The position numbers and the translations under genes were made by a program. From contig NZ_JIAC01000001.1 of the NCBI RefSeq assembly GCF_000687995.1, positions 1,116,001 through 1,180,000 of the forward strand: a DNA stretch of 64,000 bases. The letters are read 5' to 3'. Within the stretch, counting starts at the first letter, position 1; the number at the start of each line of letters is the position of its first letter. Below are positions 3,378-50,468 of the stretch, piece by piece. Origin of the DNA: Selenomonas ruminantium AC2024 (GTDB taxonomy: Bacteria; Bacillota; Negativicutes; Selenomonadales; Selenomonadaceae). Under the pieces are notes generated by a model that was given only the letters and a program-made list of their open reading frames with translations, was not told the DNA's origin and made no database searches.

Positions 3378-3988
3378 TAAATTGCAGTTTGTTGGGGCGT
3401 TCGTGGTAAAGGTATCTTGTTCATACGTAGTTTGAGGCCAGACGGGGGAGTAATTTTTCTGTTTTCCGCTAAACGACCCCTTCGTAAAGTACAGCTGTCC
3501 AGTTATTCGCGCCGGGCAGGCCAACGGCGCTGCTTTCAGTGTATTTGCTTAGCCGGGGACTACATGGGGTCGGCCTTCACTTCGTTCAGGCAGTCGCTCC
3601 CTACAGAAAAATCACTCCCCCGTCCGACCCAAGCTACGGCCAATACTATTGCCACGAACTCGTTGCTCCCGTTACAAGAACATCGATGTGCTTGCTGCTT
3701 GTTTCCACGAAAATTACGTTTTATAGGGACGTCGCTTAGGGCGGAGGTGGTGATGCTTTTCGCCGTGGAACGACTGTCCGAACGCAGTGAGGACTGGCCC
3801 ACAAACGGTAGTTACTAAAAATCGAGCTGAACATACGCGCCGCCGGTCTTGCCCGGCGCAGGTAACTAAAAAGTCCATACATTTGCTTGTGGGTCATTTA
3901 GTGCAACGGCGAAAAGTATTACCACCTCTGCCCAAACTAAGCTGTAACAAAAATATTTCAGCACGCACTAACATACTGCAGCTTATAT
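3378..3988. repeat. Foldback repeat A, copy A1 (about 610 bp, non-coding)
   Basis: Fills the gap between the tRNA terminator and the AEC transporter. It is clearly homologous over its whole length to 49860-50468 at similar length. Ends are imperfect inverted repeats (TAAATTGCAGTTT against the complement of ATACTGCAGCTTA). Inside, CGGGGGAGTAATTTTTCTGT (3443-3462) pairs with 3603-3622. GGCGGAGGTGGTGATGCTTTT near 3742 pairs with a copy near 3920. Two GCGCCG-type hairpins are also present. Open frames inside are on both strands and not consistently kept in A2, so I do not call genes here. Confidence 0.8.
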
Positions 3989-16049: not shown

Positions 16050-16078
16050 TTGACATATGTCCTAATATTTGCTATGCT
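16050..16078 (+). promoter_or_regulatory. Promoter of the purine riboswitch-permease unit
   Basis: TTGACA (16050-16055) and TATGCT (16073-16078), spacer 17, ending 12 bases before the riboswitch P1 stem. Confidence 0.75.
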
Positions 16079-16090
16079 AGTACCGTTAAT

Positions 16091-16190
16091 TTCTTGTATA
16101 AGCCCGCTGATAGGGTGCGGGCGTTTCTACAGGCAGCCGTAAACTGTCACAGTCTACAAGAAGAAGCAGGGAGTTTTTTGCTTCTTTTTT
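16091..16190 (+). promoter_or_regulatory. Purine (guanine-type) riboswitch with terminator
   Basis: The P1 stem TTCTTGTA (16091-16098) pairs with TACAAGAA (16155-16162). P2 is GCCCGC/GCGGGC, the core GTTTCTAC is present, and P3 is GGCAG/CTGTC enclosing the diagnostic loop CCGTAAA. The ligand-reading segment is GTCTA, with C at the position that selects guanine or hypoxanthine. The terminator AAGAAGCA/TGCTTCTT plus T run (16161-16190) shares bases with the 3' side of P1, so ligand binding should change termination. It precedes a purine permease gene. Confidence 0.9.
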
Positions 16191-21945: not shown

Positions 21946-22147
21946 GCGCAGGGCAGGCGGGGATAGCTGTCTTACGCTATGACGGGGAGCTGAACGGATT
22001 TTTTGCCTTTAATTAAGTATCGTGAAAAGCAAAAACTCGCTACGCTCAAACAGTATGCTTTTCACAATAAAACAGCGGTATGGCAAAAAATCCGTTCTTA
22101 ACGCTCACCGCCAACGCTTCAGCCAGCTATCCCCGCCTGCTCTGCGC
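21946..22147. repeat. Foldback repeat B, copy B1
   Basis: Three nested stems lie in gene-free DNA. The outer arms 21946-21969 and 22124-22147 pair over 24 positions with one mismatch (core GCAGGCGGGGATAGCTG). Middle arms GAACGGATTTTTTGCC (21992-22007) and 22082-22097 pair perfectly. Inner arms 22019-22031 and 22056-22068 also pair. Linkers such as TTTAATTAAGTATCG, AAAACTCGCT and ATAAAACAGCGGTA are shared with copy B2 at 47424-47623, while the stems differ. The remaining bases up to 22231 include a conserved TTTTTAGGC. Confidence 0.85.
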
Positions 22148-45865: not shown

Positions 45866-46342
45866 ATGGACGCTGTTCCTTTAGATAGTATAGATGTAAA
45901 CAATCTGGAATTTCGGGAGATGGCTCCCGAGGATGCGGACGCGGTAGAAATCGTGGAAAAGGCCTGCTTTGCCATTCCTTGGTCGCGGGAGTCCTTCTGG
46001 AAGGAAGCGCAGAACGAAAACACCTTGTATCTGCTGGCTCTCGATGGCGAGCGCGTGATTGGTTATGTGGGCTGCTGGATTTCCTATGAGGAAGCGCAGA
46101 TTACCAATGTGGCTATTTTGCCTGAGTATCGGGGCAAACGCATTGGCACGCGGATGTTTGGCGAGATTATCGACCGGGTGAAGGAAAAGGGCGTAACGGC
46201 CATGACCCTGGAGGTACGGCCCACCAATGTTCCGGCGCTGGCGCTTTACAAGGGCTATGGCTTCAAGGAAGCCGGCCGCCGTCCGAAATACTATCAGGAT
46301 AACGGTGAAGATGCCATTATCATGTGGAATACGAAACTCTGA
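45866..46342 (+). CDS. rimI: Ribosomal-protein alanine N-acetyltransferase RimI
   Basis: A 158-residue GNAT acetyltransferase, in the family that acetylates the N-terminus of ribosomal protein S18. The acetyl-CoA loop reads VAILPEYRGKRIGTRMF, and the C-terminal part TLEVRPTNVPALALYKGYGF is diagnostic of RimI. Its position between tsaB and tsaD is conserved in many bacteria. AGAGGAG precedes ATG 45866. Confidence 0.95.
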   Translation: MDAVPLDSIDVNNLEFREMAPEDADAVEIVEKACFAIPWSRESFWKEAQNENTLYLLALDGERVIGYVGCWISYEEAQITNVAILPEYRGKRIGTRMFGEIIDRVKEKGVTAMTLEVRPTNVPALALYKGYGFKEAGRRPKYYQDNGEDAIIMWNTKL

Positions 46343-46370
46343 TTGTATAGATAAGGTGACGGAAGTTTTT

Positions 46371-47402
46371 ATGGAAAAGAAAAAGGAAGAACTGCTGACG
46401 CTGGCAATAGAGTCCAGTTGTGATGAGACTTCGGCGGCAGTTTTGCGGGGCGGACGGGAGATTCTTGCCAATATCATCTCCACACAGATTCCCATTCATC
46501 AGAAATTTGGCGGGGTGGTGCCGGAAATCGCCTCCCGCAAACATATCGTAAATATCATGCCAGTAATTGATGAGTGCCTGCGCACGGCTGGCGTGGAACT
46601 TAAAGATATCGACCAGGTGGCGGTAACGTATGGCCCGGGGCTCGTGGGTGCGCTTTTGGTCGGTGTGTCGGCGGCAAAGTCTTTGGCGTTTTCACTGGGC
46701 AAGCCATTAATCGGCGTCAATCATCTGGAAGGACATATCTTTGCCAATTTCCTGGCGGCACCGGATTTGGAACCGCCGTTTATGGCGCTCGTGGTGTCTG
46801 GCGGTCATACGGCGCTTGTCGATGTGCAGGGCTATAACCGCTTCCGTATGATGGGGCAGACCCGTGATGATGCGGCTGGCGAAGCCTTTGACAAGATTGC
46901 CCGCGTGATGGGCCTGCCTTATCCCGGCGGCCCGCGCATTGATGCACTGGCCAAAGAGGGCGACCCCATGGCCATTGATTTTCCGCAGGCGCTTACGGAA
47001 AAGGGCAATTACGAGTTCAGTTTCAGCGGCTTGAAGTCGGCGGTGCTCAACTACATCAACAGTGAGAAGATGAAGGGGCACGAGCTCAATAAGGCCGATA
47101 TTGCAGCGTCCTTCCAGCGTTCGGTTATCGAGGTGTTGGTGGGTAAGGCGTTCCAGGCAGTCAAAGAAGCCGGGCGCGATACCTTGGTGCTGGCTGGCGG
47201 TGTAGCAGCCAACAGCGGTTTGGAAGCCCGCCTGCGCGAAGAAGCGGAGAAGCGGGGCGTAAGGTTCCTTTATCCGAGCAAGATTTTGTGTACCGATAAT
47301 GCGGCTATGATTGGGTGCCGTGGGTACTATCAGGCGCTTGAGGGCGGGTATAGTGATTTGTACCTGAATGCGGTGCCGGGGCTTAGTCTCACAGATAAAT
47401 AA
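46371..47402 (+). CDS. tsaD: tRNA N6-adenosine threonylcarbamoyltransferase TsaD
   Basis: A 343-residue catalytic subunit for t6A. It begins LTLAIESSCDETSAAVL. The metal-binding HxxxH is in NHLEGHIFANF near residue 115, with SGGHTALVDV, RTDDAA-type TRDDAAGEAFDKIARVMG and the end motif CTDNAAMIG. A GTG at 46353 is an alternative start six codons earlier. Last gene of the tsa operon. Confidence 0.96.
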   Translation: MEKKKEELLTLAIESSCDETSAAVLRGGREILANIISTQIPIHQKFGGVVPEIASRKHIVNIMPVIDECLRTAGVELKDIDQVAVTYGPGLVGALLVGVSAAKSLAFSLGKPLIGVNHLEGHIFANFLAAPDLEPPFMALVVSGGHTALVDVQGYNRFRMMGQTRDDAAGEAFDKIARVMGLPYPGGPRIDALAKEGDPMAIDFPQALTEKGNYEFSFSGLKSAVLNYINSEKMKGHELNKADIAASFQRSVIEVLVGKAFQAVKEAGRDTLVLAGGVAANSGLEARLREEAEKRGVRFLYPSKILCTDNAAMIGCRGYYQALEGGYSDLYLNAVPGLSLTDK

Positions 47403-47423
47403 GTTTATAAGATACGTTCCAAT

Positions 47424-47623
47424 GGCGGAACAGATATGGTTTTCACGCTGCGCTATGCCGCAGGGCTAAAACTATTTTTTGCCTTTTAATTAAGTATCGC
47501 GAAGCGTCAAAACTCGCTTCGCTCAGACAGTAGACGCTTCACGATAAAACAGCGGTAGGCAAAAAATAGTTTCTTAACGCCCTGCGCCAAACGCTTCGCT
47601 TAGAGAACCATATCTGTTCCGCC
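47424..47623. repeat. Foldback repeat B, copy B2
   Basis: Outer arms GGCGGAACAGATATGGTT (47424-47441) and 47606-47623 are perfectly complementary over 18 bases. A CGCAGGGC (47459-47466)/GCCCTGCG (47579-47586) stem comes next. AAACTATTTTTTGCC (47469-47483) pairs perfectly with 47558-47572. The inner ATCGCGAAGCGTC (47496-47508) pairs with 47533-47545. Linkers match copy B1, stems do not. No gene is visible between tsaD and the sensor kinase; TTTTTAGGC follows the element as in B1. Confidence 0.85.
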
Positions 47624-47661
47624 AAGTTACGTTTTTAGGCTATTTTTACAGGGAGGATGGC

Positions 47662-49859: not shown

Positions 49860-50468
49860 TAAATTGCAGTTTGCCGGGGAGTTCGGTTCGTGATAAAAAT
49901 ATCATGTTCATACGTAGTCAGGGGCAAACGGGGAGTGCTTTTTCTGTCTCCCGCTAAACGACCCCCTCGGAAAATTGAGCTGTCCAGGTACCCGCGCCGG
50001 GCAGGCCAACGGCGCTGTTTTCAGCGTATTTGCTTAGCGGCTTCCTATAGGGGCCGGCCTTCACTGCGTTCAGGCAGTCGCTCCTAACAGAAAAAGCACT
50101 CCCCGTCCGCCCCAAGCTTCGCCCTGTACAATTGCTACGAACTCGTCTCTCCCGTAACAAGAACATCGATGTACTTGTTGCTTGTCACTACGAAAATGTC
50201 GTCTTATACGGACATCGCTTAGGGCGGAGGTGGTGATGCTTTTCGCCGTGGAACGACTGTCCGAACGCAGTGAGGACTGGCCCACAAACGGCACAGACTA
50301 AATACTGGGCTGAATATACGCGCCGACGGTCTTGCCCGGCGCAGGTACCTAAAAAGCCCATAAATTTCCTTGTGGGTCATTCAGTGCAACGGCAAAAAGT
50401 ATTACCACCTCCGCCCCCATTGAGTTGTAACAATAATATTTCAGTACGCACTAACAAACTGCAATTTA
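49860..50468. repeat. Foldback repeat A, copy A2 (609 bp, non-coding)
   Basis: Perfect 14-base terminal inverted repeats TAAATTGCAGTTTG (49860-49873) and CAAACTGCAATTTA (50455-50468). CGGGGAGTGCTTTTTCTGT (49929-49947) pairs perfectly with 50087-50105. A 28-base arm at 50222-50249 (GGGCGGAGGTGGTGATGC onward) pairs with 50389-50416. The block 50052-50084 is an inverted copy of 50250-50282. It matches A1 (3378-3988) throughout. No target-site duplication is evident. It fills the gap before the mannitol regulator gene. Confidence 0.82.

Follow-up and report, generated by a model that had tools for sequence, protein, structure and literature searches.

A family of long nested hairpins with changing stems and conserved linkers behind genes of Selenomonas ruminantium

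Short imperfect intergenic palindromes such as ERIC/IRU, Correia and BOX are non-autonomous and presumed mobile, and their copies share stem sequence; we know of no wholesale stem change with kept loops in repeats of this kind. Integron attC sites, located behind genes, are read as folded single-stranded DNA, with structure kept over sequence. IS1272 belongs to the IS1182 family. It replaces inverted-repeat target stem-loops, some of them behind genes, without target duplication (PMC5678879). REP/BIME repeats of the GTAG and CGTC super-families are reported as many intergenic palindromes per genome, close to ORF ends, between convergent genes and often dimeric; REPs measure 20-40 bp, and the CGTC type is reported without a dedicated transposase (PMC3733652). 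Surveys of bacterial stem-loop families describe genome-wide repeated intergenic palindromes, and Selenomonas is not mentioned in the main text of either (PMC2267715, PMC12306157).

The element described here, from the chromosome of Selenomonas ruminantium, is like REP/BIME in standing close behind stop codons (29 of 35 copies) and between convergent genes. In some copies GTAG or CGTC is present next to the apical part, which may be chance. Unlike REP/BIME, it is about 200 bp long rather than 20-40 bp, has four nested stems of free sequence with conserved linkers and a direction fixed to the gene, and occurs in a genome in which no Y1 transposase was found. Stem-loop replacement of the IS1272 kind would match its swapped cores and missing terminators, although IS1272 carries a transposase and conserved ends, whereas the Selenomonas element has no gene and its ends differ between lineages. 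It resembles ERIC/IRU, Correia and BOX repeats in being a presumably mobile intergenic palindrome but not in their shared stem sequence, and attC sites in its presumed folding as DNA, its preference for structure over sequence and its gene-end placement but not in its conserved marks. Of what has been described, IS1272 comes closest in behaviour and REP/BIME repeats come closest in position. The family of long nested DNA hairpins behind ordinary genes of rumen bacteria is apparently new to the literature, and no such repeats in Selenomonas were described in the open-licence literature searched.

Two copies, B1 and B2, lie in the window, the whole 64,000-nucleotide stretch of DNA analysed (Table 1). 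An initial annotation had observed that they share linkers, and this is borne out: linker AATTAAGTATCG, searched with at most one mismatch, has two matches in the window, B1 and B2 only (shuffle mean 0.19). It had also counted three nested stems; the nesting stands, the number does not, as four stems were found. The outer stems, which it called perfectly self-complementary, are complementary, although "perfect" is slightly too strong (21/22 pairs in B2, whose 22-nt arms are 95% complementary, and 23/24 in B1). As RNA, the + strand of B2 folds into one long hairpin of -101.2 kcal/mol, an energy reached by none of 200 shuffles (mean -49.65, z -11.35). Motif CGCTNCGCT is present three times in B2, always in the same direction, and the counterpart of the apical loop in other genera reads, by eye, AAACGCGCTNCGCTTGRACGA. 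Another family of long inverted repeats that seems unrelated also lies in the window (3436-3629, 3736-3936 and 49921-50416), with arms GGGCGGAGGTGGTGATGCTTTTCGCC and GGGGGAGTAATTTTTCTGT, and a purine riboswitch aptamer at 16074-16176 (Rfam RF00167, 60 bits).

Table 1. Parts of hairpin copies B1 and B2 and the gene preceding B2 (positions in the window)
Feature	Position	Strand	Evidence
B2, whole hairpin	47423-47624	+	Inverted repeat and RNA fold
B2 outer stem S1, left arm	47423..47444	+	Inverted repeat with 47603-47624; BLAST homology to other copies mostly ends here
B2 outer stem S1, right arm	47603..47624	+	Pairs with 47423-47444
B2 left linker ACGCTGCGCTATG, holds motif CGCTNCGCT	47445..47457	+	Sequence; partial conservation in alignments A1 and A2
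B2 stem S2, left arm, differs among copies	47458..47466	+	Alignment, covariation
B2 stem S2, right arm	47579..47587	+	Alignment, covariation
B2 stem S3, left arm, A+T-rich, partly conserved	47469..47484	+	16 nt, 100% complementary to 47557-47572
B2 stem S3, right arm	47557..47572	+	Pairs with 47469-47484
B2 linker AATTAAGTATCG, 3' end joins S4	47488..47499	+	Motif search, alignment
B2 stem S4, left arm, variable	47496..47508	+	Alignment, covariation
B2 apical loop AAAACTCGCTTCGCTCAGACAGTA, most conserved part of the family	47509..47532	+	Near-invariant columns in 28 own-genome copies
B2 stem S4, right arm	47533..47545	+	Alignment, covariation
B2 linker ACAGCGGTA	47549..47557	+	Sequence, alignment
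B2 linker TTCTTAACGC	47571..47580	+	TTC invariant, other positions mostly at least 90% (alignment)
B2 right linker AACGCTTCGCTTA, holds motif CGCTNCGCT	47590..47602	+	Alignment
tsaD, gene with B2 at its 3' end	46227..47402	+	NCBIfam TIGR03723, 445 bits (cut-off 296)
B1, whole hairpin	21946-22147	+	
B1 outer stem, left arm	21946..21969	+	Inverted repeat
B1 core	21972..22123	+	Covariance model, 148.4 bits
B1 outer stem, right arm	22124..22147	+	Inverted repeat

Below, G000 is the window's own genome, other G numbers are genomes of relatives and L numbers individual loci. BLAST within the same chromosome found many homologous places, mostly of the core only, with homology ending near the start of the outer stem. 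A covariance model, as the initial annotation had proposed, was built from an alignment of 28 own-genome copies and recognises 35 clear copies in the chromosome (76 to 166 bits), B1 and B2 included. It gave 21 further hits, of which 20 are these palindromes read in reverse at lower scores and one is a 23-bit hit elsewhere. The element, about 200 bp, consists of a core of 150 nt and the flanking outer stem S1 of about 20-25 bp. Read from the outside in the 28-copy alignment, S1 (free sequence) is followed by a linker with CGCTNCGCT, S2 (free), CTAAAA, the A+T-rich S3, linker TTTAATTAAGTATC, S4 (free) and the near-invariant apical loop AAAACTCGCTNCGCTCARACAGTA; the return strand carries the linkers GATAnnACAGCGGTA, TTTCTTAACGC and AACGCTTCGCTTAG.

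Further copies with non-complementary outer arms were sought, and complementary arms are kept in 34 of the 35. The covariance model does not include the outer stems; an automatic measure of the arms outside the core finds the outer stem in 33/35 copies at a score of at least 27 and in 30/35 at 28 or more. Copy 197785 has an outer stem of 21/22 pairs and has lost the right linker, so that the arm falls inside the model's core; copy 891114 has lost its right outer arm. When the left arm of one copy was crossed with the right arm of another, a score of 28 was reached in 13 of 1,188 crosses, and with 35 copies found by the model a chance likeness of B1 and B2 is ruled out. S1 sequences are locus-specific. 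S1 looks like part of the element, since it ends 1-5 nt from the core in all 33 measured copies and is 19-26 bp long in 31 of them.

With the exception of one identical pair, the closest unlinked paralogs in G000 are about 12% apart, and so show no sign of recent movement there. Two copies (G000 2181-2332 and 2817247-2817398) have equal scores and the same sequence, each behind a MATE transporter gene, a recent duplication. A 1.3-Mb stretch of the chromosome (1.21-2.52 Mb) holds one of the 35 copies (1741067), the others lying in the rest. Pairs of copies in opposite directions also occur in the chromosome.

In the 29 copies close behind genes, a same-strand stop codon lies 28-87 nt before the core (45 nt between tsaD and the B2 core), and in 7 copies, all within the 29, a convergent frame ends at most 100 nt beyond the far side. 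By a simple frame call, 22 copies are sense-only, none antisense-only and 6 neither. Upstream frames were scanned in 29 of 30 cases, one spurious 24-aa frame being excluded. Fourteen of the 29 proteins reach NCBIfam cut-offs (tsaD, dnaB, uvrA, pyrG, nagA, alr, proC, nrdG, rnfB, nirJ2, diaminopimelate dehydrogenase, flavodoxin, rubrerythrin and a MATE transporter); the others score below cut-off or have no match.

Intrinsic terminators were found at 1/35 element loci, compared with 10/29 window 3' ends with room for one and, for the same genes, 11/22 element-free ends in relatives, the stretches scanned being 120 to about 200 nt and unequal between groups. The scan was home-made and finds terminators at 6/29 window ends with loops of at most 10 nt, and at 10/29 with loops of up to 24 nt; the stricter of these scans is positive in 2/12 tsaD relatives. 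The 22 element-free ends comprise 15 from five loci and seven tsaD relatives (L046-L052), more distant tsaD relatives being excluded, and several of them lack a terminator because the next gene starts immediately. For replacement of the IS1272 type, the contrast of 1/35 with 11/22 is to be read with flanks too diverged for exact junctions, and in G018 the terminator stays. No T-run stands directly 3' of the right arms in the copies inspected; B2 has five T 8 nt farther on. That the element stands in place of an ordinary intrinsic terminator belongs to the account we favour, held as a whole with moderate confidence, and the element may act as the gene's 3' end.

Pairing was assessed in an alignment (A3) of 121 copies, 116 of them distinct, from six genomes; they were taken from among the matches listed, hence not every copy per relative is included. 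Standard pairs make up 95.4% of 4,511 cells. Double changes occur in 34 of 39 pairs, 1,147 cells in total, against a shuffle mean of 324, with 0/500 shuffles as high. Sliding the partner by 1-3 columns lowers pairing to 34-51%; A3 was fitted to the structure, which biases pairing upward, yet the excess is far above these controls. The inner stems S2 and S4 are as variable as S1. Pairing constraint and conserved linkers are found in the six close genomes as well as in more lineages and other genera of the family.

Such covariation would fit a structured RNA, namely a hairpin in the 3'-untranslated region that terminates or protects the upstream mRNA and whose stems covary because the RNA must fold. 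The same-direction position, the distance behind genes and the near absence of ordinary terminators at element loci all agree with this, as do two loci with inverted cores (described below), both between convergent genes, so that whichever way the core points it is in sense to one gene. In RNA under selection, G-U is expected to be tolerated and A-C not, or the reverse if the other strand is the one that folds. After removal of row L177 as a duplicate of L176, which also applies to the ortholog and recent-change counts, the A3 cells hold 4247 Watson-Crick, 57 G-U, 81 A-C and 126 other states. With one copy per lineage (n=80) the G-U and A-C counts are 36 and 55 (binomial p 0.06), in 17 clusters from other lineages and genera 5 and 10, in outer stems 13 and 19, and in the 17 own copies that lie apart from convergent or paired sites (context assigned by hand) 7 and 10. 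A preference for G-U over A-C is thus absent in all five sets counted, whereas 32 distinct tRNAs from several genera have G-U in 70 of 733 pairs (9.5%); the tRNA program marks accepted pairs only, so the zero A-C there carries no weight as evidence. A function needed on both strands could mask a wobble preference, but the counts in those 17 copies speak against this. Nor is there an Rfam match at B1 or B2 at gathering level, permissive thresholds giving sub-threshold hits in five loci, all outside the element; the missing T-runs also count against an RNA. A structured RNA is therefore possible but doubtful. Since G-U is no commoner than A-C despite overwhelming covariation, it is apparently as DNA, not RNA, that the pairing is kept. 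The expression check proposed in the initial annotation looks towards an RNA, whereas the pair counts favour DNA. Covariation alone is usually taken as proof of structured RNA; it is not so here, and the balance of G-U and A-C separates the two.

We also investigated how copies differ between orthologs. In 101 ortholog pairs, which are mutually non-independent and have at least 250 matched flank bases on both sides, coupled core changes number zero in 47, one to six in 32 and at least seven in 22. Unchanged copies can be near-identical: behind tsaD, five genomes show 0-2 loop differences per 75 columns, with 500-bp flanks up to 10% apart. The most-changed pairs have common flanks, 7-14 coupled stem changes and 11-24 loop differences. 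By eye, the core is swapped within a kept outer S1 at tsaD in G003, at 1741k in G003 and G009 and at 197k in G011; flanks and outer S1 are common there, and the inside differs on both arms at similar height. This symmetry is claimed from reading by eye for these three loci only, with 229k a less clear case; when breakpoints were searched automatically for symmetry, the many indels in the intergenic flanks made the result too noisy. Among the copies compared, which include part of those in G003, no donor less than 20% different was found for its swapped tsaD core.

Cores are also inverted in place. G011 has the 1204k core inverted relative to G000 and G016, the crossover lying within S1, and G005 has the 891k core inverted relative to five others. 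Misassembly of a draft genome could mimic such an inversion, though the two cases come from different assemblies. Locus 788k was discounted as a clean inversion, as its two genomes differ by rearrangement of an apparent former pair. Deletion derivatives occur at tsaD in L044 and L066, at 1043k in G011 and at 1137k in G005. The tsaD locus of L066 and a similar place in G020 initially resembled empty sites; L066 reads as a deletion between short repeats. In L202 (G016, element at 1262-1412), tandem GTTCGAGGTA repeats just 5' of the outer stem suggest slippage duplication of the left border motif.

The initial annotation had offered strong structural selection or, alternatively, a mechanism that writes inverted copies of flanking DNA. 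The strong pairing constraint with conserved linkers holds up, but the copying of flanks finds no support: 47 of the 101 ortholog pairs show no coupled core change, arms are often inherited unchanged, and S1, as shown by its spacing and length, looks like part of the element. The changes seen instead occur in place, as core inversion (1204k, 891k) and core replacement within an unchanged stem base.

Arms might instead rewrite each other, with template switching or cruciform exchange copying arm onto arm and the stems drifting without structural selection. The crossover inside the stem at 1204k, a one-base difference swapped between arms at 833k (by eye) and the missing G-U preference are consistent with this. 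Close orthologs, however, show mainly one-sided changes (among 975 pair columns, 7 coupled changes compared with 55 non-Watson-Crick states, namely 14 G-U, 13 A-C and 28 others), so arms are not mended quickly, and the conserved linkers are left without explanation. We regard this rewriting as improbable. In the same orthologs, 89 of 1,821 unpaired columns vary. The recent one-sided changes appear unfiltered, so resident copies may now be under weak selection, and the near-perfect pairing of the stems probably dates from the installation of each copy.

It is less probable still that only the outer stem is foreign, the core having been inserted into the loops of existing terminators so that each S1 is an old terminator stem. 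Element-free relatives often have a terminator at the same place, S1 is locus-specific, and stem bases outlast core swaps, all as this would predict; against it, the length of S1 and its distance to the core are nearly constant, no T-run directly follows S1 in the copies inspected, and S2 and S4 are equally variable.

Outside G000, 33 of 60 relatives have a match at E 0.01, the strongest in the genus and family and weak ones in distant families, and matches drop to 0-3 in the same-genus genomes G008, G002 and G015. Copy counts in relatives are lower bounds, as the genomes are partly fragmented and some contigs end at hairpins. No plasmid matched B2 or the two-hairpin unit of G018 described next, and no phage matched B2; in viral contigs the loop motif occurs in 18 stretches, four of them with weak model hits of 34-46 bits.

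G018 and G019, of the same genus, carry many copies of a unit of about 550 bp, composed of one + and one - hairpin within AATTACAGTTT inverted ends. Two copies are 84-97% alike to others by BLAST, and the unit is recently amplified in this lineage. Terminal inverted repeats with closely similar dispersed copies, as in MITEs, were found in the G018/G019 lineage only and not in G000. Of the seven G024 loci read, at least three (L267, L272, L284) carry a single hairpin flanked by GGGGCTGTAACGAAATA-like inverted ends, and 7/19 matches in this genome start at a contig end, as expected for young repeats; the unit ends thus differ by lineage, AATTACAGTTT in G018 and GGGGCTGTAACGAAATA in G024. A binding site at which a chromosomal protein (nucleoid, gyrase or repair factor) recognises cruciform loops, kept at gene ends like REP/BIME, would suit the near-invariant apical loop, the threefold CGCTNCGCT of B2 and the gene-end position, as reported for REPs (PMC3733652), but is very improbable given the recent amplification in G018/G019 and the 0-3 matches in three same-genus genomes, by which the element is not essential.

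At six of 20 G018 loci (L291, L293, L296, L299, L301, L304), one unit end follows, by eye, the T-run of an intrinsic terminator at 3-8 nt, and the terminator persists beside the unit and is not replaced. Empty sites with both flanks joined without the unit were found for the L298 locus in G010, G012 and G014 and for the L299 locus in G012, the latter with its terminator intact. For the L301 locus, the terminator is present in G019 with no unit behind it (left flank only), and G010 carries the unit. The G018 insertions, read by eye, show no recognisable target duplication. At L300, L312 and L314 (G018, G019), an outer inverted repeat, GGGRCTRTGA ... TCACAGTCC(C), with a T-run after it encloses, by eye, both the two-hairpin unit and a terminator, an arrangement of hairpins nested inside a terminator.

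No transposase was linked to the hairpin family among the Y1 and IS1182-type DDE enzymes examined. Y1 transposases (PF01797) are absent from G000, G010, G011, G018 and G002. Of ten further genomes, six have one, including the element-free G008, and four lack it, including the copy-rich G010, G011 and G018; a Y1 transposase (RAYT) was accordingly rejected as partner. The IS1182-type DDE domain has one copy in G000, partial ones in G019 and none in G011, G018, G024 or G047, and this transposase was rejected for its patchy presence and because 0/5 loci examined carry a hairpin of the family. No parent element with a transposase and the same ends was found; the IS1182-type gene of G000 has GGGGCTGT hairpin ends and no family hairpin near. 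This gene (G000 1869289-1869687, L339) is a single transposase frame of 544 aa, flanked by terminator-like hairpins that start with GGGGCTGT; a near-identical hairpin stands alone behind a gene in G019 (L387).

With moderate confidence, we favour an old multi-copy family of palindromic mobile DNA elements at gene 3' ends, which trade hairpins and stand near REP/BIME and IS1272. The element would move as folded DNA, either a cruciform or a single-stranded hairpin, with the conserved linkers as putative recognition marks and the stems presumably any sequence that pairs, which would explain changing stems, constant linkers and unfavoured G-U. By analogy with what is proposed for IS1272, movement would probably swap one hairpin for another (stem-loop replacement), through a putative enzyme supplied in trans; resident copies would then decay slowly and may serve the gene as its 3' end. 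The enzyme, the folded intermediate and any host benefit are what we infer from the pattern of copies. Against a mobile palindrome stand the lineage-specific ends, the terminator retained in G018, the lack of a recognised target duplication and of a linked transposase, and the strong direction bias, which is unusual for a mere DNA passenger.

More tentatively, the element might be a gene-less one whose heritable identity lies solely in its unpaired linkers and its fold. The stems would be free text, replaced as a whole and turned around at their site. A recombination or transposition system that recognises structure would maintain their complementarity as DNA and trade hairpins at gene ends, replacing terminators.

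If the mobile-palindrome account is true, the family offers an extensive natural collection of sequences that conserve complementarity as DNA but not the sequence itself, and the question of a folded DNA versus an RNA role for long bacterial palindromes would become directly testable. Stem-loop replacement would then extend from one insertion sequence to a genome-wide rewriting of gene 3' ends.
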